A stretch of DNA of 62,608 nucleotides from an uncultured Hyphomicrobiaceae bacterium (GTDB lineage: Bacteria; Pseudomonadota; Alphaproteobacteria; Rhizobiales; CALHAX01), in NCBI GenBank assembly GCA_937931785.1, contig CALHAX010000044.1, positions 1 to 62,608 on the forward strand, given 5' to 3'. The position numbers and the translations under genes were made by a program. Of the stretch, positions 39,885 to 55,415 are shown in pieces (the first letter of the stretch is position 1; each line of letters starts with the position of its first letter). Under the pieces are notes generated by a model, which was not told the origin of the DNA, ran no database searches, and saw nothing but the letters and a program-made list of their open reading frames with translations.

Positions 39885-40262
39885 CTAGTAGGTCAAGACC
39901 TTGCAATCACCTTCCATGATTTCCTCGATCATGTGTGCGCCGCCGACGATCCCCGAACATTCGGGAATAAGATCGTCTTCCGACATATTGAAAAGATCGA
40001 GGTTCGGAGAGCAGCAGTAGAATTTTACACCGGCTTCATGGGCGTCCTTGATGAAATCGTAGACTGATTTCGGCGAACCTTCCTTGACGACCAGCTTTTC
40101 TGCTTCGCCCTTTTTCATCAAACGTCCAGAGGTAGCGGTACAAATGACCTCGACTTCGTATTCCATGGCAGCGGCAACGCTGGCCTGAAAGATTGGTGCG
40201 CCCAATTCCTCGCCGTTGCGCGGATCGGTATTCGCCATCACAATCAGAAGTTTTTCAGCCAT
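39885..40262 (-). CDS. dsrE3: DsrE3-type sulfurtransferase
   Basis: 125 residues from ATG 40262, with GGAGG ten bases ahead. The DsrE fold is seen in LLIVMANTDPRNGEELGAPI and HEAGVKFYCCSPNLDLF. Cys83-Cys84 in YCCSP is at the expected sulfur-binding position for DsrE3; further Cys at 41, 102 and 120. It would pass persulfide sulfur with TusA to sHdr/LbpA. First gene of the core sHdr transcript; a 24-bp operator-like site and repeat copy 2 lie in its leader. Confidence 0.88.
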   Translation of the reverse strand: MAEKLLIVMANTDPRNGEELGAPIFQASVAAAMEYEVEVICTATSGRLMKKGEAEKLVVKEGSPKSVYDFIKDAHEAGVKFYCCSPNLDLFNMSEDDLIPECSGIVGGAHMIEEIMEGDCKVLTY

Positions 40263-40443: not shown

Positions 40444-40467
40444 ACATATTCGTATTTTACAATATGT
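40444..40467. promoter_or_regulatory. Sulfur-island inverted repeat, site A
   Basis: ACATATT-N10-AATATGT, a perfect 7-base inverted repeat. It is upstream of dsrE3-shdr and behind the gat gene. The same motif is found at four other places (sites B-E) in the sulfur island. In related bacteria ArsR-type repressors (SoxR, sHdrR) control these genes; no such regulator is in the window. Confidence 0.7.
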
Positions 40468-40482
40468 TTGAAGCGTGCCGTC

Positions 40483-41184
40483 TCAGGCGTCTTGTTTCAT
40501 CCATCCCGTGGCCTGAATCAGCCCCGTCATAATGGGAACAAGCGCATCTTCAATTTCGAGCTTGAGAGCTCGCAGCTCATTGAGTTGCTCACCAATGTTC
40601 TCAGGTGCGTCTTCAAATTCCATGATCAGATCTTCGATCATCGCGAGCTTGATCCCGGGGTGTCCTGCAAAGCCAAAGGCATTTGTCCCAATCTGGAAGA
40701 GGAGGGGGCGTCCGTCCGGTGCTTCTGCGATGGTCGTCGCATATGCAGGTGGAGTGAAGGTATCCCGCATATAGGAAACGGAAGGGAAGGATATGGGTGC
40801 AAAGCCGCCAAGTGCACCGCCATGAACAGTCGCCGCGTGTTCCACACGGAATGTAAGCGGGGCAGATTCTGTGGTGCCATCGGCTGCAAGCGCAAGGATT
40901 TGCGCACCGAGGCCTATTCCGATGATAGGTTTTTCCAGCATCAGGCACGTTCGCGCAAGACTGATTTCTTTGTCCAGAGTCGGCAACAGTGGCGCACTGG
41001 CGGTGCCCCATTGTCCGCCACCGATCAGGATCAAACCGTCACCAAGTACATCTGGATCGGGCAGACTGCCCCCTGACGTGAAGGGTCGAAAATAACTGAA
41101 GCGTATGCGACGTCCTTCAAGGTGATCCTCAAGAAGCCCGAGCCATTCGGACTGTGTGTGCTGAACGACGGAGACGTGTTTCAC
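40483..41184 (-). CDS. Class I glutamine-amidotransferase-like protein of the lipoate-assembly cluster
   Basis: 233 residues with the class I GATase fold (LILIGGGQWGT, KPIIGIGLGAQILALAADG). The catalytic cysteine is missing: the elbow that usually reads GxCxGxQ is GIGLGAQ here. The late His-Glu pair (HPE) is also changed, reading GHPGI. So glutamine hydrolysis in the usual way is not expected. Related genes are linked to lipoate ligase in other sHdr loci. It overlaps the ligase gene by four bases (ATGA). Confidence 0.75.
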   Translation of the reverse strand: MKHVSVVQHTQSEWLGLLEDHLEGRRIRFSYFRPFTSGGSLPDPDVLGDGLILIGGGQWGTASAPLLPTLDKEISLARTCLMLEKPIIGIGLGAQILALAADGTTESAPLTFRVEHAATVHGGALGGFAPISFPSVSYMRDTFTPPAYATTIAEAPDGRPLLFQIGTNAFGFAGHPGIKLAMIEDLIMEFEDAPENIGEQLNELRALKLEIEDALVPIMTGLIQATGWMKQDA

Positions 41185-42251
41185 GCGCTCACTCCCACGA
41201 CATCCTCAATCACGCCGCGAAAGTCGGCAGCAGAAATACTGAGCATACCCACCTCTGCCGTTTCGAAGAACCTGGTGGCGGCTTCTCCTGCTTGGGTAAT
41301 CTCGACACCGCGAAGTGCGGCCTCAAGATCGAGCACAGTGCGGGGAGGCGTTATGAAAAAATCGCCGGTCAGCAACAGCTCGCGAATACGGCGCGCACCA
41401 TCCGGCCCATCGAGGCGGGTAAACGCAGTCACGGTTCCGCCAGGCGTTGTCCGGGTTGCGGAACGTAAATCCGGTGCGTCTGGTGTATCGATGCTGTAGA
41501 CGAAATCGTCGGTTCCAATCTCGTCTCGGTATACCTCAATCGTGCGCTCTTCCTCGTCGGCGCTAATTTCTCCGGGTGCGCATTCAATGCCGAGGTGTTC
41601 GCGAAGCCCCGTGATCACCGCGTTATGGACCTGTCCCACGGTGGGTGCGTCACCCAGCAACGCCTGCAATGTCGTGACCCGATGTTCGGCCTTGTCGAGA
41701 TCGTGTTTCTTCAGTTTGGCTTCCGGCACATTCAGGCACGCCATCATGGCTGTCGGATTGACGTCGACGAGCACGGTTCCCTGATAGATCAGCGTGTTGC
41801 CATCGAAGAACCCTCCTGTACCGCATATTTTTTGTCCGCCAACTTCAATGTCGTTGCGCGGGCGAAACTGGGCATCAATCCCGAAGGCGTTCGAAAGTCC
41901 GCCTGCAACGGCCTCACAGATGGCTTTGGTATACGATCCAAGGTCATTCATCGGCAAATTGCGACGGTCAAAGACCAGTTCCCAACCCACTTGCTTTTCA
42001 TCGAGATAGATTGCGCCACCGCCGGTGATGCGGCGCACAATTCCAATGCCATTGTTGCGACAGTGATCAACCTTGACCTCGTTGGACAAGACTTGATGTC
42101 GGCCAATCAGAACGGTTGGAGGAAACCTGAGGAAACGAAGCGTGTCGGGAACCTGGCCATCGTTGTGCAGTTCGACCAACGCCTGATCATAGGCAATCTG
42201 TTGCCGACCCTCGGCCACGCCAGAGTCAACGATACGGAAGGGGACTGTCAT
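41181..42251 (-). CDS. Lipoate-protein ligase of the sHdr system, sLpl(AB)
   Basis: 356 residues. The ligase core is seen in RRITGGGAIY (lipoyl-AMP site) and GGQKICGTGGFFDG with the catalytic Lys. The C-terminal domain from about 245 on resembles the accessory LplB-like domain, so the protein is of the fused sLpl(AB) type. It loads octanoate or lipoate on LbpA. It follows a radical SAM gene by nine bases and overlaps the GATase-like gene. Confidence 0.88.
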   Translation of the reverse strand: MTVPFRIVDSGVAEGRQQIAYDQALVELHNDGQVPDTLRFLRFPPTVLIGRHQVLSNEVKVDHCRNNGIGIVRRITGGGAIYLDEKQVGWELVFDRRNLPMNDLGSYTKAICEAVAGGLSNAFGIDAQFRPRNDIEVGGQKICGTGGFFDGNTLIYQGTVLVDVNPTAMMACLNVPEAKLKKHDLDKAEHRVTTLQALLGDAPTVGQVHNAVITGLREHLGIECAPGEISADEEERTIEVYRDEIGTDDFVYSIDTPDAPDLRSATRTTPGGTVTAFTRLDGPDGARRIRELLLTGDFFITPPRTVLDLEAALRGVEITQAGEAATRFFETAEVGMLSISAADFRGVIEDVVGVSA

Positions 42252-42260
42252 GATTGGTGC

Positions 42261-43550
42261 CTAGATGAATTCCAGTTCTTCACCATCCTCATATGGTTCG
42301 CCCGGTTTTTCCATGTCGAGTTGATAACGGATACGACGCAGGTCGACCGCTTCTGGCTGGAACGGATAGCTTGCAATGTCTGATGGCGGTGAGTCGCCGT
42401 AGGGTCGGTCACAGGCGGAGATGTCATCGGCAAATTTACCCGGGCAGCCCGACGTGCGGAATGCGATGCCGGCATCGATGATGGCATCCAGTTCGCCCTG
42501 AGGCATGCCGAAATCCACAACACGTCCGTGCTCATCGAACTTCATGTTCGAGACGCGTTGACCGCAATAGTCGATGAGGTAACGACCAAGCTGCACGCGT
42601 CGCCACTGGTCCCGCGGGGTAGCGGGTAGGTGATCCATCAGTGAACCCTTTTCCGGGAAGAAGCAGAACATGTGGCTGTGCCCCCCCATGTCGACAAGTT
42701 CCTGCACCAGGGTCAGAGTGTCGAACTCGGTTTCGCCCATACCGACAATAATATGCGCCCCAAATTTCTGGGGACCAAAAATGTCACGCGCGTCCAGAAG
42801 AATTTCCCAATACTTTTTCCACGTGTGGGGGCTTTGCACGCCTTTCCCCCGCGTGCGGTCAAAGAGTTCCGGTGTTGCTGCGTCAAGCGACACCGTAAAG
42901 ATGTCCGAACCCATTTCATGGAGCTTCTGAACGTCGGCGCGTTGCATCGTTGTCGGGTTGGACAAAATGGAAACAGGCACCGTGTCCGGATCAATTTTGT
43001 CTGTCCACTTCTTGAGAACCGCAAACGTATCGTCTTCGGAGCGCGGGTGCGTGATCATCGAAATACACATGCGGTGGAACGGTGTATGCTCACCCTTTTC
43101 CGCAACAATATCAACGATCTGTTCCATTGGAACAGCAGGCCAGTCTACCCGGATGAAATTGCGATCTGCGTAGTCCCGATCCGCTTCTCGATGCCGTGCC
43201 AAACCGCAATAGGCGCAATTCGCCCTGCACCCTTCCGGGTAGGTGAGGAGAAGGTTGAGGCACCGGGTACAGGAGCAGCGATACATCTTGGCCGACATGA
43301 TGCCGAGCGTGATCGCCGCCGCAGTCGAGATCTGCACGTAGTCCGGGGACTGCATATTTGGCGTCATATAATTGTCGTTCGGCAGGTAAACACCGGTCGG
43401 GGTAACATCAGCCGATTTCACGCGGCCACCGTTCTTGGCGTCTTTTGGAATCACCTGTGGAACACGTGGTTCCATGACCTCGGCCGGATTGAAGTCCAGG
43501 CCATTCGGGCCATTCGGGCTCATGGTGCCTTCTGATTTTACGCAACCCAT
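42261..43550 (-). CDS. Radical SAM protein, LipS1/LipS2-type lipoyl assembly (member 1)
   Basis: 429 residues. The radical SAM cluster motif is CRANCAYC (CxxxCxxC), with further cysteines just ahead (CSCTRC). A partner enzyme is encoded next door. Such pairs insert the two sulfur atoms into octanoyl-LbpA in place of LipA. Which member is LipS1 and which LipS2 cannot be settled here. It follows member 2 by 28 bases. GGGAGAG precedes the ATG. Confidence 0.85.
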   Translation of the reverse strand: MGCVKSEGTMSPNGPNGLDFNPAEVMEPRVPQVIPKDAKNGGRVKSADVTPTGVYLPNDNYMTPNMQSPDYVQISTAAAITLGIMSAKMYRCSCTRCLNLLLTYPEGCRANCAYCGLARHREADRDYADRNFIRVDWPAVPMEQIVDIVAEKGEHTPFHRMCISMITHPRSEDDTFAVLKKWTDKIDPDTVPVSILSNPTTMQRADVQKLHEMGSDIFTVSLDAATPELFDRTRGKGVQSPHTWKKYWEILLDARDIFGPQKFGAHIIVGMGETEFDTLTLVQELVDMGGHSHMFCFFPEKGSLMDHLPATPRDQWRRVQLGRYLIDYCGQRVSNMKFDEHGRVVDFGMPQGELDAIIDAGIAFRTSGCPGKFADDISACDRPYGDSPPSDIASYPFQPEAVDLRRIRYQLDMEKPGEPYEDGEELEFI

Positions 43551-43578
43551 GATGTCTCTCCCGCTTGATTATGTGTCG

Positions 43579-44616
43579 TCATGCTGCGCACGCCGAACGG
43601 ACACGTGTTTGAGCGTTCCCACCCAGTTTGATGGAACAACAGGCATGCTCCTGGTGCGACGGTCGTCCGATCGCTTCAGCAACGGCAACCGCGCCATCGG
43701 CCGGAAACGCAATGCCATCCAACCCAGCCATGACGGCGTAAGCATCTGTGATCCTTTTATGCATACCGGGTGGACGCGCGCACCCAAGCAAAACCTGACG
43801 ATCAGGAATACGTTGTCGGGCTTCGAGGAAGATACGTCCCACATCGCGTGTCTCCGGTGTAATGAACGTGCCGGACTTCGCGTAGAATGGCATGATCACG
43901 ACGAGCACCAACGAATGAATGCCGTGCCGGGACACAATATCGAATGCATTGGACTCACCAAGTATCTGTCCGTAGTGCAAGCCAACGACGATGTGCGGCA
44001 CAACTTCCATTGATGTTGTGCAAAGGGCTGCGAGTGTGGCCTCAAAATCTTCGACGGGCCGATCCAGATGATACACATCGCGGATCGTGTCCTGGGATCC
44101 AATGACGTCCATCATGGCGGTATCAACGCCCGCACTTTCCATCATTCGTGCGCGCGGTTCGTCGAGAAGAGCTGAGTGTATCGCGATCTTCAGATCCGGG
44201 AAGTCGTGCTTCAGGCGCTCTATGACAGGATAGTATTTCTCATACTTGATTTCGTTGCGGCGGTTCGATCCGCCGGAGAGCAGAAAGCCCTGCAGGTTCT
44301 GAAGGACGATCAGGTCGCGCACCTTTTGTTCCAGCATTTCCGGTGTGGTCGCCGGGATCATGGGTTCCAGGATCTTGGCCTGACAGTGATCACACATCAG
44401 TGCGCAGGCACCGGCTGTTATAGAGAACGCAGGGAATGAGTTCTTGCCACAACCTTGCAACTCATCGCTTGAGTATTCCTTGAACGTCGGCGTGGAGAAA
44501 CGGATCGGTCGACCGGAATGATTGGGGGCAACGTGTTCGAGATCTCGCACCAAGGTGGCATCGAACTCGGCATCTTCGAGGGGTTCAATATCCCCCATCG
44601 CGTTCAACCAGTCCAT
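43579..44616 (-). CDS. Radical SAM protein, LipS1/LipS2-type lipoyl assembly (member 2)
   Basis: 345 residues. The cluster motif is CALMCDHC (CxxxCxxC) in an N-terminal third, followed by a TIM-barrel-like pattern (LLSGGSNRRNEIKYEKYYPV; PHIVVGLHYG). It works with the other radical SAM protein in making the lipoyl group of LbpA. It is the first gene of the lipS-lpl-gat run and is divergent from the YeeE/SoxT gene across the operator-like site C. Confidence 0.85.
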   Translation of the reverse strand: MDWLNAMGDIEPLEDAEFDATLVRDLEHVAPNHSGRPIRFSTPTFKEYSSDELQGCGKNSFPAFSITAGACALMCDHCQAKILEPMIPATTPEMLEQKVRDLIVLQNLQGFLLSGGSNRRNEIKYEKYYPVIERLKHDFPDLKIAIHSALLDEPRARMMESAGVDTAMMDVIGSQDTIRDVYHLDRPVEDFEATLAALCTTSMEVVPHIVVGLHYGQILGESNAFDIVSRHGIHSLVLVVIMPFYAKSGTFITPETRDVGRIFLEARQRIPDRQVLLGCARPPGMHKRITDAYAVMAGLDGIAFPADGAVAVAEAIGRPSHQEHACCSIKLGGNAQTRVRSACAA

Positions 44617-44670
44617 TGTACCCCCGACTGTAATCGTATCTGAATACGCCGCATATCGGGCGCCCAGATT

Positions 44671-44694
44671 TCATATTCAAAAGATCGAATGTAT
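44671..44694. promoter_or_regulatory. Sulfur-island inverted repeat, site C
   Basis: TCATATT-N10-AATGTAT. It lies in the 130-base divergent gap between a lipS gene (minus) and the YeeE/SoxT gene (plus), so may control both directions. Spacing is the same as in sites A, B, D and E. Confidence 0.6.
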
Positions 44695-44746
44695 CTGTTA
44701 GAGGAAACCAACACCCAGTGCAACGCTCGCAATTCAGGACATCACC

Positions 44747-45820
44747 ATGGAAGAAATGTCGATAGCGACTTTGGCCGGACTTTCCGGTCTCGTCATCGGA
44801 GCTGGTTTCGGGGCTCTGACGCAGACGACCAATTTTTGCACGATGGGTGCAGTAGCCGACGCGGTTTCTTTTAGTGACTACAAGCGTGCACGGGCCTGGT
44901 TGCTTGCAGTCGCAGTCGCCATCGTTGGGGCCCAGGCAATGCAGTATGCAGGCATGATCGACCTTACACAGTCCATCTATCTTAGTTCTTCTTTCAACTG
45001 GTTCGGCAGCATTGTCGGTGGTTTGATCTTCGGGTTTGGAATGGTGCTGGCGAGTGGTTGTCCAGGGCGGAATCTTGCGCGAGTAGGTGGCGGTGACCTC
45101 AAGGCGCTGGTCGTATTGATCCTGATTGCGTTTTTTGGGTACGCGACTTTGCGTGGAATCACTGGGGTGCTTCGGGTGCAGATGGAAGCGCTGACATCAG
45201 TGAATACGGAATCAGTTGGATTGGACAACCACGGACTCGGGACGATCGTCTCCGGCGTCACGGGACTCGGTATATCCAGCGCAACGTTGTTGGTCGCCGC
45301 CTTGTTCGTCGCAGCTATTCTTTGGTTTTGCTTCAAGGACGCCTCGTTTCGCGCCTCGAAGAGAGACTTGATTGCAGGGTTCGGGCTTGGCGGACTCATC
45401 ATTTCTGGATGGTGGGCCACAGGCGTTTTGCTTGCGGATGACTTCGATCCTCAACCGCTTGCATCGTTGACCTTCGTTGCTCCAGCCGGGAACACACTTC
45501 AGTATCTGATGACCTTCACCGGCGCATCGATCAATTTTGGGATTGCGACAGTATTTGGGGCCATTCTTGGTGCCTTCGTCGCGTCGCTGGTGCGCGGTCG
45601 TTTCGCAATCACAAGCTTTTCGGACAAGGCGGATACGCTACGTCATTTCGCCGGTGCGGCCATGATGGGGGTTGGCGGTGTGGTGGCACTCGGTTGCACG
45701 ATCGGACAATGCATCACCGGGATGTCGACACTGGCGCTCGGCTCCGCTTTGACGTTCGCCGCAATTGTCATCGGCGGTATATTCGGGATGAAACATCTGG
45801 AACGTGCGCTTGGGATCTAG
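44747..45820 (+). CDS. soxT: YeeE/YedE-family sulfur transporter (SoxT-like)
   Basis: 357 residues, about ten hydrophobic segments. Cysteines at conserved places are in TTNFCTMGAV, LASGCPGRNL and GCTIGQCITG; YeeE proteins move thiosulfate or sulfane sulfur through a cysteine path. SoxT members in related sulfur oxidisers are linked to sox and shdr genes, as here. It would bring the sulfur left on SoxYZ into the cytoplasm. Its end overlaps the convergent histone-deacetylase-like gene by four bases. Confidence 0.85.
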   Translation: MEEMSIATLAGLSGLVIGAGFGALTQTTNFCTMGAVADAVSFSDYKRARAWLLAVAVAIVGAQAMQYAGMIDLTQSIYLSSSFNWFGSIVGGLIFGFGMVLASGCPGRNLARVGGGDLKALVVLILIAFFGYATLRGITGVLRVQMEALTSVNTESVGLDNHGLGTIVSGVTGLGISSATLLVAALFVAAILWFCFKDASFRASKRDLIAGFGLGGLIISGWWATGVLLADDFDPQPLASLTFVAPAGNTLQYLMTFTGASINFGIATVFGAILGAFVASLVRGRFAITSFSDKADTLRHFAGAAMMGVGGVVALGCTIGQCITGMSTLALGSALTFAAIVIGGIFGMKHLERALGI

Positions 45821-46938
45821 GTCGACGCACGAAGTTTATAAGCGCGTGCCAACTCCGTTACGTGATCGCTAATTGGGCCGTGGTTTGGTGTATCAAGAAG
45901 CGTGGTATTCCAATTCGGAAGCACGTCTTCTTCATCAACGAGATCGCAGTCCAGAGCGTTCAATCTACAGACAGCGGTTTGGGGCAGTTGATCCGGTATT
46001 TCAAACCCGGCGAGCATGCCCCAGAGTGATGTCCAGCAGCGCGCCAACGTCCATGGATTATACCCGCCGCCACCGAGAACTACGGCGGAGGGATATGTGC
46101 GAACCAGTGTCATGACTGCGCTGCACAATCCGACATTACTGAGATCCAATTTTGACAATGGATCCCCCGAGAGGGCGTCTGCTCCTGTTGTGATGACAAG
46201 GGCGTCGGGACTGGCGACCTCAAGAAACGGCAGTATCGTTTCGATCATCAGGAACTGAAGTTCGCTATCATTGAACCCGGCTGGCACGGGCAAATTTAAA
46301 GATCGACCGCCGCCATTATCGTCCCTCAAACCGGTATAGGGCCAGCGTCCCGCCTCGTGGGTCGAAACAGTCCATACGCGATCATTGTCGTTGAATGCAT
46401 CTTGTACGCCATCGCCATGATGGGCGTCGAGATCGATATACGCCACCCGTGACACTCCGCGATCCAACAACGTCAGTACGGCGAAAACCGGGTCGTTGAA
46501 ATAGCAGAACCCACTGGCATGATCCGGTCGACCGTGATGCGTTCCGCCCGACGGGTGATAGGCTACGCGTCCTGTCGCCGCAATTTCAGCGGCCCGAATG
46601 GATCCCCCAACGCTCAACGATGCGCGGTCAAAGACACCGGGAAAGTATGGGTTCTCCATCGTACCGAAGCAGTATTTTTCGCGATGTCCAGAGGACACAG
46701 AGCCCACGACATCGGCTTCTGCCAGCGCTTCTACGTAATCCCGCGCATGGAAGCGTATGAGATCATCAACTGTTGCCGTCGGACTTTGCTCAAAGCGATC
46801 CGCCGGCAACCAGTCGAGCATTTTGCTAAGGTCATAAACCGTCTCAACGCGCGAAATTGCCAAAGGGTGATTTTGTCCGAAGGCAGCCTTCCGATAGCCG
46901 TCACTTCCCACAAAAACGGCTTTGGATAATTCACTCAC
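45817..46938 (-). CDS. Histone deacetylase-like (AcuC/class II HDAC) family protein
   Basis: 373 residues. The zinc site and the His-His dyad are intact: HPSGGTHHGRPDHASGFCYF, IDLDAHHGDGVQDAF and TTGADALSGDPLSKL. Bacterial members deacetylate acetyl-CoA synthetase, polyamines or other small molecules. Its place, in opposite orientation between soxT and tusA, is odd; no link to sulfur oxidation is known to me. The start at 46938 leaves 124 bases to tusA, which hold site D. Confidence 0.88.
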   Translation of the reverse strand: MSELSKAVFVGSDGYRKAAFGQNHPLAISRVETVYDLSKMLDWLPADRFEQSPTATVDDLIRFHARDYVEALAEADVVGSVSSGHREKYCFGTMENPYFPGVFDRASLSVGGSIRAAEIAATGRVAYHPSGGTHHGRPDHASGFCYFNDPVFAVLTLLDRGVSRVAYIDLDAHHGDGVQDAFNDNDRVWTVSTHEAGRWPYTGLRDDNGGGRSLNLPVPAGFNDSELQFLMIETILPFLEVASPDALVITTGADALSGDPLSKLDLSNVGLCSAVMTLVRTYPSAVVLGGGGYNPWTLARCWTSLWGMLAGFEIPDQLPQTAVCRLNALDCDLVDEEDVLPNWNTTLLDTPNHGPISDHVTELARAYKLRAST

Positions 46939-47006
46939 GATGTTGTCCGGATATTCGGGGCGAGCGTCGCGCTCGACATGGCTTGTATGAAAGCCGGATA
47001 CACCTT

Positions 47007-47030
47007 ACACATGCAAATGTCTGTATATGT
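47007..47030. promoter_or_regulatory. Sulfur-island inverted repeat, site D
   Basis: ACACATG-N10-TATATGT, 33 bases upstream of tusA. Less symmetric than sites A and B but of the same spacing and half-site pattern. It could also serve the divergent histone-deacetylase-like gene. Confidence 0.5.
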
Positions 47031-47062
47031 TTTCAATCAACGCGACACTATGAGGGGATAAC

Positions 47063-47287
47063 ATGGCCGAGATTCTGGACACCAAAGGATTGAACTGTCC
47101 GCTGCCAATCTTGAAAGCAAAGAAAGCACTAGCGGACGTTCCCGCCGGTGAAAGTCTTGAAATTCACGCGACGGATCCTGGCGCAGTGGCCGATTTCGAA
47201 GCGTTTTGTCGCTCAACAGGAAATGAACTTGTGGAGTCGAGCCAGGACGGCGACGTGTACAAATTTATTATCAAGAACGCAGCCTGA
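47063..47287 (+). CDS. tusA: TusA sulfurtransferase
   Basis: 74 residues. The sulfur-carrier Cys12 is in the family hallmark GLNCPLPILKAKKAL. It takes persulfide sulfur and gives it to DsrE3 and sHdr/LbpA. It stands just upstream of soxY, on the same strand but behind its own operator-like site (D); site B follows it. AGGGG lies ahead of the ATG. Confidence 0.95.
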   Translation: MAEILDTKGLNCPLPILKAKKALADVPAGESLEIHATDPGAVADFEAFCRSTGNELVESSQDGDVYKFIIKNAA

Positions 47288-47311
47288 TGATCGATTAAAA
47301 TTCACAATCAC

Positions 47312-47335
47312 ACATATTCGCACTTGATAATGTGT
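47312..47335. promoter_or_regulatory. Sulfur-island inverted repeat, site B
   Basis: ACATATT-N10-AATGTGT, one mismatch from a perfect inverted repeat. It lies 57 bases upstream of the soxY start. Spacer and halves are closest to site A, including CGYAYTTKAY in the spacer. Confidence 0.7.
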
Positions 47336-47392
47336 CGGTTATTGACAATGCTGTGAAGCATGACGCACGCGGCGACATGGGGAGAGGAAACA

Positions 47393-47866
47393 ATGACGAA
47401 CAAGATGCAGATTGCAGTTGTTGACCGACGCGACTTCGTGCTCGGCGCTACGGCAGCAGGGCTCATTACAGCGTTGTCGGTTGGGGCCGCACATGCGGAG
47501 GTCATTCCGACACTTGAAGAGGCCATGAAAACTGCGGTTGGCGATGCGAAACCATCTGAAGGCAAGGTGACTTTGAAGTTGCCAGAGATTGCTGAAAACG
47601 GGAATACGGTACCATTTTCTGTCAGTGTCGAGAGCCCGATGACGGCGGACAATTACGTCAAGGCCGTCCACATTTTCGCAAAAGGCAATCCTCGTCCGGA
47701 CGTTGCGAGCTTCATGTTCACGCCGGCGAGCGGCAAAGCGGAAGTCACGAGCCGTATGCGGCTAGGCCAGACACAAGACGTGATCGCCTTGGCAGAGATG
47801 AGCGACGGCAAGGTGTACATGGGCAAACGGACCGTGAAGGTCACAATTGGCGGCTGCGGCGGCTGA
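47393..47866 (+). CDS. soxY: SoxY, thiosulfate-carrier subunit
   Basis: 157 residues from ATG 47393 (GGAGAGGA upstream). The twin-arginine signal (Arg12-Arg13-Asp-Phe-Val-Leu) is followed by the carrier domain, and the C-terminus ends in GGCGG, where the Cys is the swinging sulfur carrier. It forms the SoxYZ pair with the next gene. SoxYZ without SoxCD leaves a sulfane sulfur on this Cys, which must be removed by another path. Confidence 0.97.
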   Translation: MTNKMQIAVVDRRDFVLGATAAGLITALSVGAAHAEVIPTLEEAMKTAVGDAKPSEGKVTLKLPEIAENGNTVPFSVSVESPMTADNYVKAVHIFAKGNPRPDVASFMFTPASGKAEVTSRMRLGQTQDVIALAEMSDGKVYMGKRTVKVTIGGCGG

Positions 47867-47884
47867 TCGGGAGGAGAGGCGAAA

Positions 47885-48208
47885 ATGGCAAAACCACGCG
47901 TTAAAGTGCCGAAGACGGCCAAAGCGGGCGACATCGTTCTGATAAAGACGCTGATCACCCACAAGATGGACACAGGTCTTCTGAAAGACAAGAAAACCGG
48001 TGAAATCATACCTCAGCATATCATCAATTCGTTTCAGGCAACCTACAACGGTGCGACCGTCTTCTCTGCAACACCACATGCAGCCATATCGGCGAACCCT
48101 TACATCGCCTTCAACGTGAAGGTGGACAAGACGGGTGACCTGGAAATGGTCTGGAAGGACAACAAAGGTAAAACCTGGTCAGCGAAGAAAACAATCACAG
48201 TCAATTAA
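47885..48208 (+). CDS. soxZ: SoxZ, carrier partner subunit
   Basis: 107 residues; KAGDIVLIKTLITHKMDTGL at the start and NPYIAFNVKVDKTGDLEMVW in the second half mark the SoxZ fold. It has no signal of its own and is exported with SoxY. It follows soxY by 18 bases. A terminator-like hairpin lies right behind it. Confidence 0.97.
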   Translation: MAKPRVKVPKTAKAGDIVLIKTLITHKMDTGLLKDKKTGEIIPQHIINSFQATYNGATVFSATPHAAISANPYIAFNVKVDKTGDLEMVWKDNKGKTWSAKKTITVN

Positions 48209-48214
48209 GTAATG

Positions 48215-48242
48215 GGTCGCGTCGACGGACGCGGCCTTTTTT
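48215..48242 (+). terminator. Rho-independent terminator behind soxZ
   Basis: GGTCGCGTC and GACGCGGCC pair around GACG (one G-T pair), then six T. It lies inside the sox run and would lower transcription from soxYZ into soxXA. Confidence 0.8.
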
Positions 48243-48251
48243 GTCTGTATC

Positions 48252-48346
48252 CCAGGGTGTGTTCGACGGAGTTGGAGACACCGAGATACGAGAAGATTAG
48301 CTCAGGACGACGCGTCATGATCACATTCGGATCAGACGCGATACAG
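48252..48346 (-). repeat. Hairpin-bearing dispersed repeat, copy 5 (soxX leader)
   Basis: Reverse orientation: CAGGGTGTGTTCGAC ... TTGGAGACACCGAGAT ... CGCGTCATGATCACATTCGG and ATCAGACGCGATACAG. It fits copy 1 read in reverse over the whole length. The hairpin is kept by paired changes (GATC with GATC in place of GATTC with GAATC). It fills the space between the soxZ terminator and the soxX ribosome site. Confidence 0.8.
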
Positions 48347-48361
48347 GGAGGGGTTCGAGAC

Positions 48362-48907
48362 ATGTGGAGAAATGCAATAAGCCTTGCGGTAGCGTTGGCG
48401 TTTGCTCTGACAACAACCAGCGCATTCGCTCAAGCGAAGAAGAAGGAACGGTGCAAGGACGGCGAGTCCGAAAAGGTTGCGAACTACACACCCGTCAAAG
48501 GTGTCAACCTCGACTGGATGATCAAGGAATCCCTGACTGGCAAGGACGGCGATCCGAAAGCCGGATTGAAGTGGATGACACACCGGCGTTTGGGCAATTG
48601 CATTGCCTGTCACGCCGTGACCAAGATTCAGGCGCTTGCGAAGCCCGGCGACTCGAAAAGCCTCAAGGCATACGGTTTTCCAGGCGAGATTGCGCCGACG
48701 CTTGACGGCGTGGCGGACCGCTACACCATCGGTGAACTGCGAATGCTTGTTGTAGATCCAAAGAAAATTTTTCCGGATACGATCATGCCGGCATTTCACA
48801 AGAACACCGGCTTCAACCGTGTGATTGGAGATTGCAAAGGTCTGGCAATTCTGTCGCCCGAGCGCGTTGAAGACGTGGTCGCGTATCTGAAAACCTTGAA
48901 GCAATAG
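48362..48907 (+). CDS. soxX: SoxX, monohaem cytochrome c
   Basis: 181 residues from ATG 48362, preceded by AGGGAGGGG. A Sec signal (about 1-24, AFAQA) is followed by one haem motif, Cys80-x2-Cys83-His84 (CIACH), with Met142 (TIMPAFH) as the likely axial ligand. With SoxA it oxidatively joins thiosulfate to SoxYZ. The upstream open frame to 48212 crosses repeat copy 5 and is not the gene. Confidence 0.95.
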   Translation: MWRNAISLAVALAFALTTTSAFAQAKKKERCKDGESEKVANYTPVKGVNLDWMIKESLTGKDGDPKAGLKWMTHRRLGNCIACHAVTKIQALAKPGDSKSLKAYGFPGEIAPTLDGVADRYTIGELRMLVVDPKKIFPDTIMPAFHKNTGFNRVIGDCKGLAILSPERVEDVVAYLKTLKQ

Positions 48908-48944
48908 GTCGGCGCTCTTTGGCCCGAACGTTAGGGAGGACAAT

Positions 48945-49778
48945 ATGAATTTCACCAAAGTCCTATGCGGCACGACCATTGCGATGGCATTGGGGTACGC
49001 TGGCATCTCCGTTGCGGCGAGTGGCGCCGACGGTGTGACGACACCAATCAAACCGGCGGCAAAAGATCATCCGCTTGAAGAGGTCTGGTCAGGCTACAAA
49101 TATGCAGCCACCGACACTCAGGCCATGCAAGATGATGAGTTTTCCAATCCCGGAATGGCCTGGCACGACACAGGTCAGGAACTCTGGTCAAAGGTTGAAG
49201 GCGACGCCGGCAAGTCGTGCGCGTCCTGTCACGGTGATGACGCGTCATCAATGAAAGGGGTTGGTGCGCGATATCCGATCCTGGACGAAAAACGTGGCAA
49301 ATTGGTCAACATCGAAAATCGCATCAACATGTGTCGTACTGAAAACATGAAGGCGAAGCCGTGGAAGTACGACTCAAGTCAGTCCCTTGGCATGTCGATC
49401 TTTGTGAAAGCGCAATCACAGGGGATGCCTGTCAACGTCAAGGTTGATGGCGCCGCCAAACCTTTCTTCGATAAAGGGAAAGAGTTTTATTACGAACGCC
49501 GTGGCCAGTTGGACATGGCATGTGCCACGTGTCACGAGGGCTATTTCGGTCAGCGCGTTCGCATGAACACCCTGAGCCAGGGGCAATCAAACGGTTTCCC
49601 AACCTACCGTCTGAAATGGCAGAAGCCAGGCTCATTGCATCGTCGCTTTTCAGGTTGCAACAAGCAGGTCCGTGCGAAGCCTTTCAAGAAGGGGTCGGAC
49701 GAGTACCTTGCGCTTGAGTTGTACCTTGCATGGCGCGGTGCTGGCCTACCGGTTGAGACACCTTCAGTCAGGAACTGA
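48945..49778 (+). CDS. soxA: SoxA, dihaem cytochrome c
   Basis: 277 residues. A Sec signal (about 1-25) and two haem motifs: Cys92-x2-Cys95-His96 (CASCH) and Cys193-x2-Cys196-His197 (CATCH). The active-site Cys238 is in FSGCNKQVRAKPF, which takes a persulfide as haem ligand. The first haem is kept, so this is the dihaem form. GGGAGG precedes the start. Confidence 0.97.
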   Translation: MNFTKVLCGTTIAMALGYAGISVAASGADGVTTPIKPAAKDHPLEEVWSGYKYAATDTQAMQDDEFSNPGMAWHDTGQELWSKVEGDAGKSCASCHGDDASSMKGVGARYPILDEKRGKLVNIENRINMCRTENMKAKPWKYDSSQSLGMSIFVKAQSQGMPVNVKVDGAAKPFFDKGKEFYYERRGQLDMACATCHEGYFGQRVRMNTLSQGQSNGFPTYRLKWQKPGSLHRRFSGCNKQVRAKPFKKGSDEYLALELYLAWRGAGLPVETPSVRN

Positions 49779-49802
49779 GGCGAGCCCACTACCAGAACAA
49801 TC

Positions 49803-49838
49803 AAGGGCGACATCGCTGAATGGTGTCGCCCTTTTTTT
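49803..49838 (+). terminator. Rho-independent terminator behind soxA
   Basis: GGGCGACA and TGTCGCCC form a perfect 8-base stem, followed by seven T. soxB starts 32 bases later, so soxB transcription needs read-through or its own promoter. Confidence 0.9.
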
Positions 49839-49869
49839 ATCTCGCAGCAAGCACGGGTAGAGACTCACT

Positions 49870-51579
49870 ATGGTAACGCGACGCGATTTTATCGCCATGG
49901 CTGCGGCAACCGGTGCAATCACCGGACTGGGCAGTACGTTCGGCGCAAGAGCCGCGCAACAGAAAATCACGCAGGACGATCTGTTACGCTTCCCGTCCAA
50001 GGGGCAGGTCACCCTGATTCATAGTACCGACTGGCACGGACAGTTGATGCCAACACACTTCCGTGAACCGTCGATCAATATCGGGGTGGGCGACGTTGCT
50101 GGAAAACCACCGCACCTGACCGGTAAAGATTTCCTGAAACGCTTTGGCATCGCGCCCGACTCTCTCAACGCACATGTCCTCACAGATCAGAATTTCACCG
50201 CGTTGGCGCGGGAGTACGGAAAGATTGGCGGTGTCGACCGGATTGCGACTCTGATCAAGGCGATCCGTGCGGAACGGGGGCACGACAAAGTTCTCTACCT
50301 TGATGGCGGTGACACGCTGCAAGGTTCCTACACGTCGATGGTGTCTGACGGCGCGGATATGGTTTCAGTACTTAACCAACTCGGCGCGGATGCAACCACG
50401 GGACACTGGGAGTTTACGTACGGCGCTGATCGCGTGACGGAGGCGTTCGGTACGAAGGATGAGGCCGGTCAGTTCAAGGGAGAATTTCTCGCGGGCAATG
50501 TCTTCGACACGGAATGGGAAGAACCGGTTTTCAAGAGTACCCGTATCTTCGAGAAAAACGGTGTACGGATCGGTGTCATCGGGCAGGCTTTTCCCTACAC
50601 ACCGATTGCAAATCCCCGTTGGAAAATCCCGACGTGGTCGTTCGGAATCCGTGATGAAGTCATTCAACAGCACGTCGACGCGGTCCGGGCGGACGGTGCT
50701 GACATTGTCGTTTGCCTCTCGCACAACGGTTTCGATGTGGACCGCAAGATGGCGTCCCGTGTGAAAGGGATCGATATCATACTGGTCGGGCATACGCATG
50801 ATATCGTGCCCGAGGCCATAAAGGTTGGCGACACGCTCCTGATTTCGACGGGCTGCAACGGCAAGTGCATTTCGCGCATCGATGTCGAAGTGAGCGGTGG
50901 TCGCATGGTCGATTATTCGTTCCAGCTCATACCGGTCCTGTCAGACGCGATTACACCTGATCCCGAGATGGCGGGGCTTATTCACGACATCCGCAAACCG
51001 CACGCAGCGATGCTCAACACGGAACTCGCGATGTCGGAATCGTTGCTCTATCGGCGTGGTAACTTCAATGGCACCTTCGACGACGTGATCTGCGATGCCA
51101 TGCTTGAGGAGCGTGATGCCGAGATTTGTTTCTCACCCGGTGTGCGTTGGGGAGCTTCGATCCTACCCGGTACGCCAATCACGTGGGACGACGTCTACAA
51201 CATGACGGCGATCACCTATCCAAACTGCTACCGCATCAAGATGACCGGTGAGCAAATCAAGGCCGTTCTGGAAGATGTTTGTGACAATCTGTTCAACCCA
51301 GATCCATATTTCCAGCAAGGCGGCGACATGGTGCGCGTCGGAGGCCTGGCTTACACGTGCCGTGTCGATCGTAAAATTGGTGAGCGGATCTCGAACATGA
51401 CGTCGCGACGCTCAGGAAAACCAATTGATGCAAAACGTGAATATGTTGTCGCAGGATGGGCATCCGTGAATGAGGGAACGGAAGGGCCTCCCATTTGGGA
51501 TGTGATTGCCAACCACCTGAAGCGCAAGAAGACTATTCGTGTCGAACAGAACACGAGCATTGAAGTGGTTCGAGGCTAG
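49870..51579 (+). CDS. soxB: SoxB, thiosulfohydrolase
   Basis: 569 residues. A Tat signal (Arg4-Arg5-Asp-Phe) is followed by the 5'-nucleotidase-like metal domain: HSTDWHGQL, YLDGGDTLQG, the SoxB-specific GHWEFTYG, and VGHTHD. The C-terminal substrate domain contains MTAITYPNCYRIKMTGEQIK. It has the dimanganese site that splits sulfate from SoxYZ-bound thiosulfate. Length typical. Confidence 0.97.
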   Translation: MVTRRDFIAMAAATGAITGLGSTFGARAAQQKITQDDLLRFPSKGQVTLIHSTDWHGQLMPTHFREPSINIGVGDVAGKPPHLTGKDFLKRFGIAPDSLNAHVLTDQNFTALAREYGKIGGVDRIATLIKAIRAERGHDKVLYLDGGDTLQGSYTSMVSDGADMVSVLNQLGADATTGHWEFTYGADRVTEAFGTKDEAGQFKGEFLAGNVFDTEWEEPVFKSTRIFEKNGVRIGVIGQAFPYTPIANPRWKIPTWSFGIRDEVIQQHVDAVRADGADIVVCLSHNGFDVDRKMASRVKGIDIILVGHTHDIVPEAIKVGDTLLISTGCNGKCISRIDVEVSGGRMVDYSFQLIPVLSDAITPDPEMAGLIHDIRKPHAAMLNTELAMSESLLYRRGNFNGTFDDVICDAMLEERDAEICFSPGVRWGASILPGTPITWDDVYNMTAITYPNCYRIKMTGEQIKAVLEDVCDNLFNPDPYFQQGGDMVRVGGLAYTCRVDRKIGERISNMTSRRSGKPIDAKREYVVAGWASVNEGTEGPPIWDVIANHLKRKKTIRVEQNTSIEVVRG

Positions 51580-51611
51580 AACTTCACCACGCAGCGGCTT
51601 GGGACATTCAA

Positions 51612-52421
51612 ATGCTCGCAGACGCATACATCTATTTCGGAGTCGGGCTCGCCGGACTAATGAGTTTTCTCAGTCCGTGCGTGTTGCCTCTTGTGCCGCC
51701 GTACCTGTGTTATCTGGGAGGTACGTCTCTGGATCAGATGACGAGCGATCAGCAGACATTGGACCGTGATGTTTATCGGAAAACCGTTATTGCTTCAGTG
51801 TGTTTCGTTCTCGGCTTCACGACGGTGTTTATCGGACTTGGGGCCGGTGCATCGGTTTTTGGTCAATTCATCCAGCAGTATAAATCTGAACTCGGGATTG
51901 CGGCTGGGGTCGTCATTATCCTTTTCGGGTTGCACTTCCTTGGTCTTTTAAAAATCTCATTGCTCTACCGTGAGGCGCGTTATCAAGGTGAGGTTAAAGC
52001 GACCAGTTTGTTAGGCGCCTATCTTCTCGGCCTCGCCTTCGCATTCGGATGGACCCCGTGCGTCGGACCGATCCTAGCTGTCGTTCTGACACTCGCTGCG
52101 AATGAAGCCAGTCTGGGCATGGGAGTTACTCTACTGCTCGCCTATTCCCTGGGGCTGGGAATCCCGTTCCTGCTAGCCGCGATTGCCATTCGTCCTTTTC
52201 TCGGGTTCATGGGGCGTTTCAAGCGTCACCTCGGCACCATTGAAAAGATCATGGGCATTCTGCTTGTCGTGACGGGCGTCCTCATACTTACCGGCTCGAT
52301 GAATTGGCTTGGTTTCTGGTTGCTTGAAGCATTTCCCGGTCTCGGTACAGTGGAGGAATGGCTCGTTCCAAGCGACCTGCAACGCGAGATCATGCGCAAG
52401 AGCCTGGAAGGGAGCGAATAA
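51612..52421 (+). CDS. soxV: CcdA/SoxV-type membrane thiol transporter
   Basis: 269 residues and six to seven membrane helices. The two active cysteines are in LSPCVLPLVPPY and WTPCVGPILAV, one per half, as in the CcdA/DsbD-beta family. Next to sox genes the family moves electrons to keep SoxY and haem-site thiols reduced. The next gene starts inside its stop codon (TAATG). Confidence 0.9.
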   Translation: MLADAYIYFGVGLAGLMSFLSPCVLPLVPPYLCYLGGTSLDQMTSDQQTLDRDVYRKTVIASVCFVLGFTTVFIGLGAGASVFGQFIQQYKSELGIAAGVVIILFGLHFLGLLKISLLYREARYQGEVKATSLLGAYLLGLAFAFGWTPCVGPILAVVLTLAANEASLGMGVTLLLAYSLGLGIPFLLAAIAIRPFLGFMGRFKRHLGTIEKIMGILLVVTGVLILTGSMNWLGFWLLEAFPGLGTVEEWLVPSDLQREIMRKSLEGSE

Positions 52422-53377
52422 TGACTTTGCGGAATGTCCTGTTTCTAGTTGTCGCGATGATCCTCACTGTCAATGGGGCTTCAGCAGATGAAAACATACC
52501 CGACAAGTATCCCACCTCGATTCTGTACGACAAACCGCGCGAGGTAGTCCCTGGCGTCTGGTCCGCGATCGGTGCAACGGCCCCTCCGACCTATGAGAAC
52601 GCGAGCCACAACAATAATCTCTCTTTCATCATAACGGGAAAGGGCGTCGTGGTCGTGAACGCCGGTGCGGCCTACAAACTCGCCGAAGCACTGCACGAGC
52701 ACATTCGAAAAATCACGAAGGAGCCGGTTAAGTTCGTGATTCTCGAAAACGGCCAGGGCCACGCAATGCTCGGTTCCAGGTACTGGAAAGAACAGGGTGT
52801 TCCAATTATCGCGCATAAGGACACAGCGATCGAGATTGAAGAACACGGACACAATTCACTTGACAGCATGAAGCGTCGGATCAAGGAGCAAGCTGACGGA
52901 TCGGAAGTCGTTGCGCCGGATATCACGTTCGATGAGCGACATGTCATCGAATTGGGTGATTGGCAGATTGAAGCGCTGAACCTAGGACCAGCACACAGCC
53001 CTGGTGACACGATGGTGTGGCTCCCGAAGCAAAAGGTGGTGATCGCCGGAGACATGGCGTTCCATCAACGCCTGCTACCGCTGTTCGACGATACAGATAC
53101 GGCTGGGTGGATCGAAACGTGGAAGAAGTTCGAAGGTCTTGGGGCAACGACCGTCATCCCCGGGCATGGTGATCCGACGGACTATGCGACAGTGCGACGA
53201 TGGACACGCGACTATCTCGTGTACCTACGCGGCAAGATGCGGGCGTTGATTGACGAAGGTGGTGCTTTGGAAGATTCCTACAAGGTCGATCAATCGCCAT
53301 ACAAACATCTTCACACGTTCAAGGAGTTGGCGGCGCGCAACGCAGGGCGCGTTTTTGTAGAGATGGAATTCGACTGA
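52421..53377 (+). CDS. SoxH-like MBL-fold protein with altered metal site
   Basis: 318 residues from ATG 52421 (a longer frame inside soxV is not needed). A Sec signal (about 1-23, ASADE) precedes the fold. The first metal motif HxHxDH is replaced by NGQGHA (LENGQGHAMLG), while later ligands are kept in GPAHSPGD, IAGDMAFH and IPGHGDPTD. So a standard two-zinc site is unlikely. Genes of this type end many sox operons (SoxH group, or quinoprotein-relay-like hydrolases); function not established. Confidence 0.75.
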   Translation: MTLRNVLFLVVAMILTVNGASADENIPDKYPTSILYDKPREVVPGVWSAIGATAPPTYENASHNNNLSFIITGKGVVVVNAGAAYKLAEALHEHIRKITKEPVKFVILENGQGHAMLGSRYWKEQGVPIIAHKDTAIEIEEHGHNSLDSMKRRIKEQADGSEVVAPDITFDERHVIELGDWQIEALNLGPAHSPGDTMVWLPKQKVVIAGDMAFHQRLLPLFDDTDTAGWIETWKKFEGLGATTVIPGHGDPTDYATVRRWTRDYLVYLRGKMRALIDEGGALEDSYKVDQSPYKHLHTFKELAARNAGRVFVEMEFD

Positions 53378-53389
53378 AATTGCTATGTA

Positions 53390-54355
53390 TTATTTCTTCC
53401 ACGCATTCAGATGTTTTCGCATGAATGCTGCTGACCGCATGCTGGCATCTTTACTCGCCAAATCGTCAGCAAACGTCCGCACGTTTGGTGGACGGAAATC
53501 AAAGCCTCGACCAACGCCGGGATACGTGATCAATGTTACGTCTCGGCCAGCGGTTTTCATGGACTGCACCGCCGTTTCAAGCGACCTGCGACGCTGATAT
53601 TGATCATATTCTCCTATAAACAACATCGTAGGTATCTTGAGTTTATCGGCCTCCAATGCGTAGCGGTAAACCTGCATCGGTTCTCCAAGGTTGGGGTCTT
53701 GCCAATGGGGATAGAATGACACGTAGCAGGCGACATCTTGGTCCTGACGCTTCATCACGGTAGCGACACGGAGGGTGTAGTAGCCGCCACGTGTGTGACT
53801 GAAGAAACAGATCCGTGACGTCGACACGTCAGGTTGTTTCAAGAGAAAGTTGATGCCTGCTTCCACATCTCCTTCGGTTTCCGGCAAATGTTCGATGGGA
53901 CGGATATCTATGAAACGCGCCGAGTAGACATCCGGAGCTAAAACGACAAAGCCGCGTGCTGCCACGCGCCGTGCAAGGCCCTTCACAAATTCGTCCAGAC
54001 CGCGACGCCCATGCTGAAAGAGGACGGCAGGGAACTGACCCTTGGTCTTGGGGCGAAACATGACGGCCGGCACTTCGGTTCCGTCTTTCGGGTTGTCGTA
54101 AGCGACATCCCGTTCGGTTACCTTGTGATTGACTGGCACAGCAAGCGCACCCTGATCGTACCAGTCATCATTCCACCAGAACTTCTGTGAAACGGGCCGA
54201 GTGTTAACCGGAGCTTCGAGTGTACGGCCGACGGCCGTGTCGGACGCAGACAGCTTGCCATCGTGTAGGCTTTGGCCGGACACGGAAGTCGCAAGCGCAA
54301 GGAATGCGCAAACCGTTGTCCAGCGTACGAAAGACGTCATGTTTCGCAAGATCAT
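53390..54355 (-). CDS. Dienelactone-hydrolase-like exported protein, catalytic residues replaced
   Basis: 321 residues, with an ATG at 54340 as a second possible start. A signal peptide ends near residue 28 (SVSGQS). The alpha/beta-hydrolase pattern is clear (AVLFQHGRRGLDEFVKGLAR; IPTMLFIGEYDQYQ). Where the family has GxCxGG or GxSxGG, this protein has SHTRGG, so Thr stands at the nucleophile; and the usual HGF in GAGHGF reads RGF. Only the acidic residue is kept. It is convergent with the SoxH-like gene and divergent from another hydrolase gene over site E. Confidence 0.7.
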   Translation of the reverse strand: MILRNMTSFVRWTTVCAFLALATSVSGQSLHDGKLSASDTAVGRTLEAPVNTRPVSQKFWWNDDWYDQGALAVPVNHKVTERDVAYDNPKDGTEVPAVMFRPKTKGQFPAVLFQHGRRGLDEFVKGLARRVAARGFVVLAPDVYSARFIDIRPIEHLPETEGDVEAGINFLLKQPDVSTSRICFFSHTRGGYYTLRVATVMKRQDQDVACYVSFYPHWQDPNLGEPMQVYRYALEADKLKIPTMLFIGEYDQYQRRRSLETAVQSMKTAGRDVTLITYPGVGRGFDFRPPNVRTFADDLASKDASMRSAAFMRKHLNAWKK

Positions 54356-54392
54356 TTCCTTTGGTCGCTCGTGCCTGCCACATCCGAACTTT

Positions 54393-54416
54393 ACACATTC
54401 AATAATTCAAATGTAA
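54393..54416. promoter_or_regulatory. Sulfur-island inverted repeat, site E
   Basis: ACACATT-N10-AATGTAA in the divergent gap between the two hydrolase genes at 53390-54355 and 54468-55415. It fits the spacing and half-sites of sites A-D, and suggests these two genes belong to the sulfur regulon. Confidence 0.5.
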
Positions 54417-54467
54417 CATTCTTGAGATCTGGCTTCGTGCCAATTGTACATGGCATCGGGAGAAGCA

Positions 54468-55415
54468 ATGTTGGTTCCCAGGCATCTGAGTGCGATACCT
54501 TCTTTACGCTTGCTCTGTTGTGCTTTCGCCGCACTGTGTTTTGTGTTCCTGGTGAACACTGCACGTGCCGAACCGCGTCTTGTCGAGATTTCTCACGCTG
54601 ATCGTACATTGCTCGCTAACCTTTCTGAAGTCGGTGACAAGGGCAAGGATACGCCGCTTGTTCTGATGATCCATGGCACCTTCGCCCATAAGGACATGGA
54701 ACTCATGACCGCCTTGCAGACAGCGCTCGCCGAACGTGGTGTGCACAGTCTGGCGATTTCATTGTCCTATCGCGAGGATCGCCGGAAGGGACCCCGCAAC
54801 TGCAAGTTGCCGATCATGGATACGTATGCCGACAGCCACAAAGAGATCGATGCGTGGATCGATTGGCTGTCCACGCAGGGATTTCAAAAGATCGTCTTGC
54901 TGGGACACAGTCGTGGTGGTGCACGCGTTGCCGAATATCTATCCATGAATGACGGAAAGAAGGTATTGAATGGGGCGGTGCTCCTTGCCCCTTCAACGGA
55001 AAAGCCCGGACGGTTTGAACGTGAGTACCGCGGGAGTTTTTCCACAGACGAAATCGCATCGATCAAATCGCAGTTGGTGACTGCGCGTGACGACAAGATG
55101 TTCGACTTGCCCGGGTTCCTCTATTGCCCAAAGACGCGTGCAAGCGCCGGTGCGATACGGTCTTACTACGGAGAGAAACAAATTCGAAACACGGGAGCGT
55201 TTCTGAAGACCGTTTCCAGTACCCAGGTTCTGGTTGTGGCAGCAGGGGCTGACACGGTGGTTAAGGACGTGCCGGAAGTGATGTCCTCTCTGGTCAACGG
55301 CAAGAACATTGAACTTGAAGTGATCGAAGACGCGGACCACCTGTTTCTGGATTTTTACGCAGAAGACGCCGCAGATCTGATCTCTGAATTCACGGCGAAG
55401 AACGGTGCCAATTGA
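54468..55415 (+). CDS. Exported alpha/beta-hydrolase
   Basis: 315 residues from ATG 54468, with GGGAGAA just ahead; two earlier starts lack such a site. A signal peptide ends near VNTARAEP. The hydrolase pattern is complete: LMIHGTFAHKD, nucleophile in GHSRGG, acidic residue in GADTVV and His in DADHLFLDF. Substrate unknown. It stands at the edge of the sox genes and faces site E, so it may be co-regulated. Confidence 0.75.
   Translation: MLVPRHLSAIPSLRLLCCAFAALCFVFLVNTARAEPRLVEISHADRTLLANLSEVGDKGKDTPLVLMIHGTFAHKDMELMTALQTALAERGVHSLAISLSYREDRRKGPRNCKLPIMDTYADSHKEIDAWIDWLSTQGFQKIVLLGHSRGGARVAEYLSMNDGKKVLNGAVLLAPSTEKPGRFEREYRGSFSTDEIASIKSQLVTARDDKMFDLPGFLYCPKTRASAGAIRSYYGEKQIRNTGAFLKTVSSTQVLVVAAGADTVVKDVPEVMSSLVNGKNIELEVIEDADHLFLDFYAEDAADLISEFTAKNGAN

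Follow-up and report, generated by a model that had tools for sequence, protein, structure and literature searches.

Probable regulator of the inverted repeats

The contig studied here, 62,608 nt from an uncultured Hyphomicrobiaceae bacterium (the window, analysed over its full length), raises the question of which regulator, if any, joins a series of sulfur-oxidation genes whose upstream gaps carry the same inverted repeat. The initial annotation had reported this 24-bp motif, ACAYATT-N10-AATRTGT, at five sites (A–E) and had proposed one regulon under ArsR-type control. It now seems very probable that the five sites are operators of a single SoxR-type, sulfane-sulfur-sensing ArsR repressor encoded on another contig of the same genome (C81). 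All five were found where they had been reported, all lie in intergenic gaps (5/5), and they are the sole matches in the window at two mismatches or fewer.

Site A, 40444..40467, strand '.': ACATATTCGTATTTTACAATATGT, gap upstream of dsrE3C and the shdr operon; exact match; matrix score 28.4, leave-one-out 23.5.
Site B, 47312..47335, strand '.': upstream of soxYZXAB; exact match; score 25.7, leave-one-out 18.3.
Site C, 44671..44694, strand '.': centre of the divergent lipS1/soxT gap; two mismatches, with an exact ATTC-N8-GAAT core.
Site D, 47007..47030, strand '.': divergent gap between a histone deacetylase (HDAC)-like gene and tusA; two mismatches; score 19.1.
Site E, 54393..54416, strand '.': between two divergent hydrolase genes; two mismatches; score 27.4, leave-one-out 23.9.

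Only A and B fit the consensus as written. At two mismatches or fewer, 100 dinucleotide shuffles of the window gave a mean of 0.34 matches (maximum 3) and none reached the five observed. At three mismatches or fewer the excess is modest, 10 matches for 5.2 expected, a count reached by 5 of the 100 shuffles. The 10-base spacing stands out: CAYATT/AATRTG with at most one mismatch occurs five times at a spacer of 10 and 0–2 times at each other spacer between 2 and 20. The eighth base is indeed C in 5/5 sites. A symmetric matrix was trained on A, B, C, E and two sites of C81 (8164 and 11127), D being kept outside the training; A–E score 19.1–29.1 with it and no other place in the window exceeds 11.7, which extends to the whole window the earlier remark that other gaps lack the motif. 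A backward-pattern control was not used as proof, as the reversed arms differ in dinucleotides. A sigma-70 scan of the region found no excess of promoter-like sites (7 versus 8.0 in shuffles).

A SoxR-type gene and further sites in the genome

In agreement with the initial annotation, the PF01022 profile finds no ArsR-type regulator in the window. Genome-wide it has three matches: on C126 (a 355-aa open frame), on C57 (30 bits) and on C81 (111 aa). The last of these, C81:10276-10611 on the minus strand, reaches 51.1 bits for a cut-off of 22 and is the candidate SoxR gene. Its best match among solved structures is the 6o8l group of the PDB (1.5e-30), which we take to be SqrR of Rhodobacter capsulatus, the entries themselves giving ArsR family. 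In the 6o8l alignment C35 (helix 2) and C101 (near the C terminus) occupy both cysteine columns of the sulfane-sulfur sensors. The protein scores 102.3 bits as BigR equivalog (NF040642), below the curated cut-off of 155. On C81 (locus L027) the gene order is that of soxSRT, with an open reading frame (ORF) at 10666-11064, the ArsR gene at 10276-10611 and a YeeE/TsuA-like gene at 9148-10257, all on the minus strand; the name soxS is given by position and by tblastn similarity to ORFs beside soxR in related loci L037 and L098, no NCBIfam match being found. Thioredoxin-like (soxW-like), flavoprotein (soxF-like) and YeeE-like genes lie nearby, their sox names likewise resting on similarity and place. 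The genome is 99.27% complete and one close SoxR-type protein was found in it. No separate sHdrR was detected: a search with the C81 protein (E <= 0.001) returned itself and the 355-aa C126 frame (36% identity). Nor was a second two-cysteine ArsR gene, as in the two-repressor control of Hyphomicrobium denitrificans, found with this one close genome match.

The matrix places four sites on C81. Two of them, 8164 (29.4) and 11127 (27.9), are training members; of the two untrained ones, 12595 (17.5) precedes the soxF-like gene and 15112, a weak site (15.5), precedes a YeeE pair. The rest of C81, fully scanned with the matrix, has nothing above 10.0. Sites within the soxSRT/soxW/soxF-like block suggest that the neighbourhood of the regulator may be under the same control. 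Over the 280,980 bases of this genome scanned with the matrix, the eight top scores are A–E and the first three C81 sites. In addition, 40 distinct places were scored, comprising the one-mismatch lists of two genome-wide pattern searches and the known sites; here the nine top scores are A–E and the four C81 sites, followed by 12.6 inside an ORF. Outside the sulfur loci, no one-mismatch place exceeds 12.6, and most of these places are within ORFs. Genome-wide, AYATTC-N8-GAATRT occurs exactly at two places, site C and C81:8166; with one mismatch it finds A, B, E, C81:11129, C81:12597 and 24 other places, D and C81:15112 not being listed. The operator core of the SoxR/SqrR/BigR group, ATTC-N8-GAAT, is present here.

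Recurrence in related genomes

Relatives were sampled as 80 loci around shdrA relatives (1.23 Mb), none of which was used in matrix training; of 60 relatives drawn, none is of the same family as this organism. The matrix yields 48 matches scoring at least 15, in 28 loci, where 30 symmetric column-permuted matrices give 1–12. For the large majority (42/48), the aligned start of a query gene (one of 26, for the most part sulfur genes) follows within 350 bp, and none of the 48 falls inside the aligned part of a query gene. In many relatives the site upstream of dsrE3C has A as its eighth base, typically in the form ATTAG-N6-CTAAT.

In H. denitrificans, SoxR bound the soxT1A-shdrR, upstream-lipS1, upstream-dsrE3C and soxA-soxY fragments and not a control near tusA; transcription was up in the soxR mutant, and DNA binding was lost on polysulfide treatment (PMC10451225). 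Locus L037, from a metagenome-assembled genome (MAG) with the H. denitrificans gene order, carries sites in all four of these gaps (soxT1A-shdrR, upstream of lipS1, upstream of dsrE3C and soxA-soxY), with scores of 24.0, 31.8, 22.2 and 19.6, and an additional one upstream of tusA (29.8). Within the genus of the Hyphomicrobium genome that holds L041, lipS1 was found in three of five genomes searched, L041's included, and two of these three loci have a lipS1-adjacent site (21.9 in the L041 genome, and 16.2), the third ending at a contig end.

Proposed regulon and alternative explanations

The idea of one regulon under ArsR-type control is supported by the single SoxR-type gene, by the sites next to that gene, by the SqrR core and by recurrence in relatives. 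In the mechanism proposed, a reduced SoxR dimer would, without oxidisable sulfur, occupy ACATATTC-N8-GAATATGT and block the promoters of shdr, lipS1/soxT, tusA, soxYZXAB and the hydrolase pair. Sulfane sulfur derived from thiosulfate would enter the cytoplasm and form a C35-C101 sulfur bridge, the bridged dimer would let go of the DNA, and both halves of the pathway, periplasmic and cytoplasmic, would switch on together. Binding, repression and the sulfur switch are what we infer here; the sites, the gene with its cysteines, the gene's own sites and their recurrence are observed directly.

The system resembles that of H. denitrificans SoxR/sHdrR in its lipS1, dsrE3C, soxY and soxT-gap promoters, its two-cysteine ArsR protein and its soxSRT order (PMC10451225, PMC12423496). 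It differs in that one regulator was found, on another contig than shdr-sox, and in that a 24-bp operator is proposed, whereas the main texts of those two papers state no operator sequence. With SqrR of R. capsulatus and E. coli YgaV it shares the best structure match (1.5e-30) and the core ATTC-N8-GAAT, which is the deduced SqrR recognition site (PMC9774250); the target genes are other ones, and here the arms beyond the core (ACAT...ATGT) recur too.

Several points weigh against assigning the sites to SoxR: (i) six top sites trained the matrix, which partly accounts for their high rank (leave-one-out scores are 18.3–26.9), and most of the 3.66-Mb genome was covered by the pattern lists only; (ii) C110:13007, within a 606-aa ORF, scores 15.7 and beats C81:15112 (15.5), and a gap at C69:9132 (L286:1483), with no ORF of at least 50 aa over it, scores 15.2, so that the matrix no longer discriminates at about 15 in this genome; (iii) C81 sites 8164 and 11127 overlap long ORF versions with TTG starts; (iv) the window and C81 are separate contigs; (v) D is the weakest of the five sites, and E is unsupported by relatives, since none of 12 hydrolase matches elsewhere (L265-L276) has an upstream site; and (vi) only 28 of the 80 related loci match at a score of at least 15, partly because many use the other form of base 8. 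A site in L266 (18.3) was considered as support for E and rejected, as it lies beyond the hydrolase 3' end, inside another ORF. The place C69:9132 is away from known sulfur genes in the sequence read and could be either chance or a further target.

Among other explanations, the one that survives best is that a second repressor of the sHdrR kind, missing from the assembly, uses the operators, either by itself or jointly with SoxR. Two repressors do act on the same fragments in H. denitrificans (PMC12423496), and 35 of 53 readable related loci have an ArsR gene after lbpA, yet this window has none; we nevertheless regard a missing repressor as unlikely, given a genome 99.27% complete with one close match and given that base 8 of the dsrE3C upstream site is A in most genomes that carry the lbpA-linked helix, whereas it is C in 5/5 of the present sites. 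Somewhat less probable still is binding of the palindrome by a sulfur-responsive regulator of another family (LysR, two-component or another). There is precedent in a CsoR-family protein that, by the title of PMC10318464, controls sulfur oxidation in Thermus; against it stand the core, which is the deduced SqrR site, the copies of the site in the SoxR gene block itself, and the location of sites where H. denitrificans SoxR was shown to bind. Chance AT-rich palindromes are already made very unlikely by the shuffles, 0/100 of which reach five at two mismatches, and by a placement that recurs in other genomes, even if intergenic gaps tend to be AT-richer than genes and the three-mismatch count (10 versus 5.2) is less striking. 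We keep to SoxR: the set is very probably a real SoxR regulon of known kind, with a candidate operator dialect.

A possible operator dialect at base 8

We propose tentatively, as a serious possibility, that base 8 is a specificity letter in an operator code of two dialects common to the sulfane-sulfur ArsR repressors: SoxR-type recognition helices (RQxxxSQQL) would read ATTC-N8-GAAT and lbpA-linked repressors with the helix SQSALSQHL would read ATTAG-N6-CTAAT, some lipS1 promoters having one half of each, so that one operator base and one or two helix residues could decide whether shdr and sox are controlled jointly or separately. ArsR relatives were collected from 71 of the 80 genomes (130 sequences, matches of about 55 bits and above; the genomes may be incomplete), and four models differing only at bases 8 and 17 were used to score, in 68 loci, the 220 bp that precede the dsrE3C alignment. 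The helix pattern was [SN]QS[AG][LI]SQHL, and a site was accepted at a shuffle p <= 0.05. Of 40 genomes with the helix, 37 have an A/A site ahead of dsrE3C, as do 6 of 21 without it (Fisher P = 4.2e-7, a value that ignores shared ancestry). The same split holds over all 68 loci (42/46 versus 7/22) and when the division is made by an ArsR gene after lbpA (27/30 versus 6/18); the 68 loci counted are also those from which the rule was derived, and they share ancestry, with about five dialect changes on the shdrA tree. At p <= 0.05 the exceptions are L040, L053 and L066 (helix present, site not A/A) and L058, L063, L081, L090, L102 and L115 (A/A, helix not found). Of the latter, L063 and L081 carry an Arg variant, and the partial lbpA-linked ArsR of L058 has SQSALSQHL, too short for the script pattern.

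Proteins from elsewhere were compared with the rule. The helix of 6o8l is RQAAVSQQLARL, which fits with the ATTC-type site of what we take to be SqrR. NolR (PDB 4omy, 4omz, 4on0) is an ArsR protein with the recognition helix SQSALSQHLSKL and the motif (A/T)TTAG-N9-A(T/A), which resembles the A dialect of the relatives, in line with the rule; it differs in having no cysteines, in controlling nodulation and in its unlike second half-site (PMC8960804). NolR serves to gauge the dialect and is not put forward as the regulator of the five sites. RexT, with a site ATTCG-N15-CGAAT, has lysine at the position of NolR Gln56 (PMC8960804), and therefore other residues too can accompany a C-type half. The present genome has RQSSVSQQLARL, the recognition helix of C81 SoxR, as the sole SoxR-type helix found and has only C-type sites, as the rule says; the eighth base would be C in all five sites because this sole helix is of the SoxR type.

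A simpler, single-residue rule (Gln61 versus His61 in SoxR numbering; His62 in NolR) was rejected. L041 (G004) has only His helices, both with Arg54, yet a C-type site, and L063 (G023) and L081 (G038), which combine Arg54 with His61, have an A-type site upstream of dsrE3C and a C-type site upstream of lipS1. Residues 54 and 61 jointly, or clade, appear to explain the dialect better than residue 61 alone.

Out of sample, 20 further genomes were taken, of which 4 had already been seen and were dropped; 7 of the 16 new ones have no scorable site, 9 have a site at p <= 0.05, and the rule agrees in 7 of these 9. Five agreements are of the kind 'no such helix, not A/A', three of them being near-identical sites of one genus (G319, G413, G491) and two coming from genomes in which no repressor was found (G080, G123), so that the informative agreements are the two A/A cases only, G097 and G136. 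The misses are G116 (a weak A/A site, no such helix) and G493 (a C-type site, with an SQSALSQHL protein having one cysteine and a Q-type repressor). In the three loci of the one genus (L303, L304 and L305, from G491, G319 and G413, respectively), the ArsR helix is RQSSISQELAQL, with Glu for Gln/His, and the dsrE3C site has one good C-type half and one poor half. A literature search of titles and abstracts, in which subscription journals were sparsely covered, found no description of an operator code separating SoxR from sHdrR-type regulators.

Hybrid lipS1 operators and lbpA-linked ArsR genes

Hybrid operators with one ATTA-type and one GAAT-type half were seen upstream of lipS1 in L046, L048, L059, L062, L065, L067, L096 and L116, that is, in 8 of 18 kept lipS1 sites. 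The A half is always on the side away from the gene, and in L116 the GAAT-type half is GCAT. Binding of these sites by a SoxR-sHdrR heterodimer, an idea prompted by this arrangement, is not specifically supported, since in five of the eight (L046, L059, L062, L096, L116) no helix of the Q type or of the Hyphomicrobium sHdrR type was found; L059 and L096 have a second two-cysteine repressor with another helix type, and L046, L062 and L116 have one type only (the genomes are mostly MAGs and may be incomplete).

Both cysteines are present in 34 of the 35 lbpA-linked ArsR proteins (those of L053 and L066 being assigned by eye owing to a long tail), and L058 ends short; the sample consists of the 80 loci nearest this shdrA and is rich in Woeseiaceae. 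Two-cysteine relatives of sHdrR have been described as rarely encoded near shdr genes (PMC12423496).

Genes flanking the sites

The genes around the five sites are as follows.

33102..39906, minus strand: shdrC1-B1-A-H-C2-B2 and an LbpA-like GCV_H protein, by Pfam domains.
39885..40262, minus strand: dsrE3C (DsrE-like; PF02635/PF13686), first gene of the shdr operon, start reassigned to Met51.
40483..44616, minus strand: lipS1, lipS2, lipoate ligase-like and glutamine amidotransferase-like genes (NCBIfam LipS1, LipS2, lipoyltransferase and amidotransferase, all under curated cut-offs).
44747..45820, plus strand: soxT-like YeeE/TsuA-family transporter (NCBIfam TsuA, under cut-off).
45817..46938, minus strand: histone-deacetylase-domain protein (PF00850, 1.7e-65), divergent from tusA.
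47063..47287, plus strand: tusA (NCBIfam TusA, 54.6 bits, under the cut-off of 78).
47393..51579, plus strand: soxY, soxZ, soxX, soxA and soxB, the soxY start being taken at 47393.
53390..54355, minus strand: dienelactone-hydrolase-like protein (PF01738).
54444..55415, plus strand: alpha/beta hydrolase (PF12697).

The shdr names were assigned from domain content and order, which we take to be as in H. denitrificans; no Pfam domain was found for the ORF in the H position or for one 146-aa ORF of this region. SoxY, SoxZ and SoxX exceed their NCBIfam cut-offs, SoxA was identified by PF21342, and soxB by PF02872 and its position in the cluster. The long dsrE3C ORF begins at 40412, and alignments with homologues begin at residue 43–51 in six of seven cases and at residue 34 in one; the start is thus probably 40262, Met51 of the long ORF, and therefore site A would lie about 180 bp upstream of dsrE3C. 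Site A sits 15 bp beyond the stop of the preceding gene, between the lipoate-assembly genes and dsrE3C. Among L037-L116, lipS1 is seen in 44 related loci, and 33 of these have a relative of the PF00850 histone-deacetylase-domain protein no more than 1.6 kb from that gene.

Significance

With these data the repeats become a proposed regulon with a named candidate regulator gene, and a 24-bp operator model is put forward in which SoxR would govern the periplasmic sox module as well as the cytoplasmic shdr module. The dialect bears on how two related repressors may keep their targets apart, a matter left open by PMC12423496; if true, it would allow one to guess from its promoters which type of regulator an uncultured sulfur oxidiser has.

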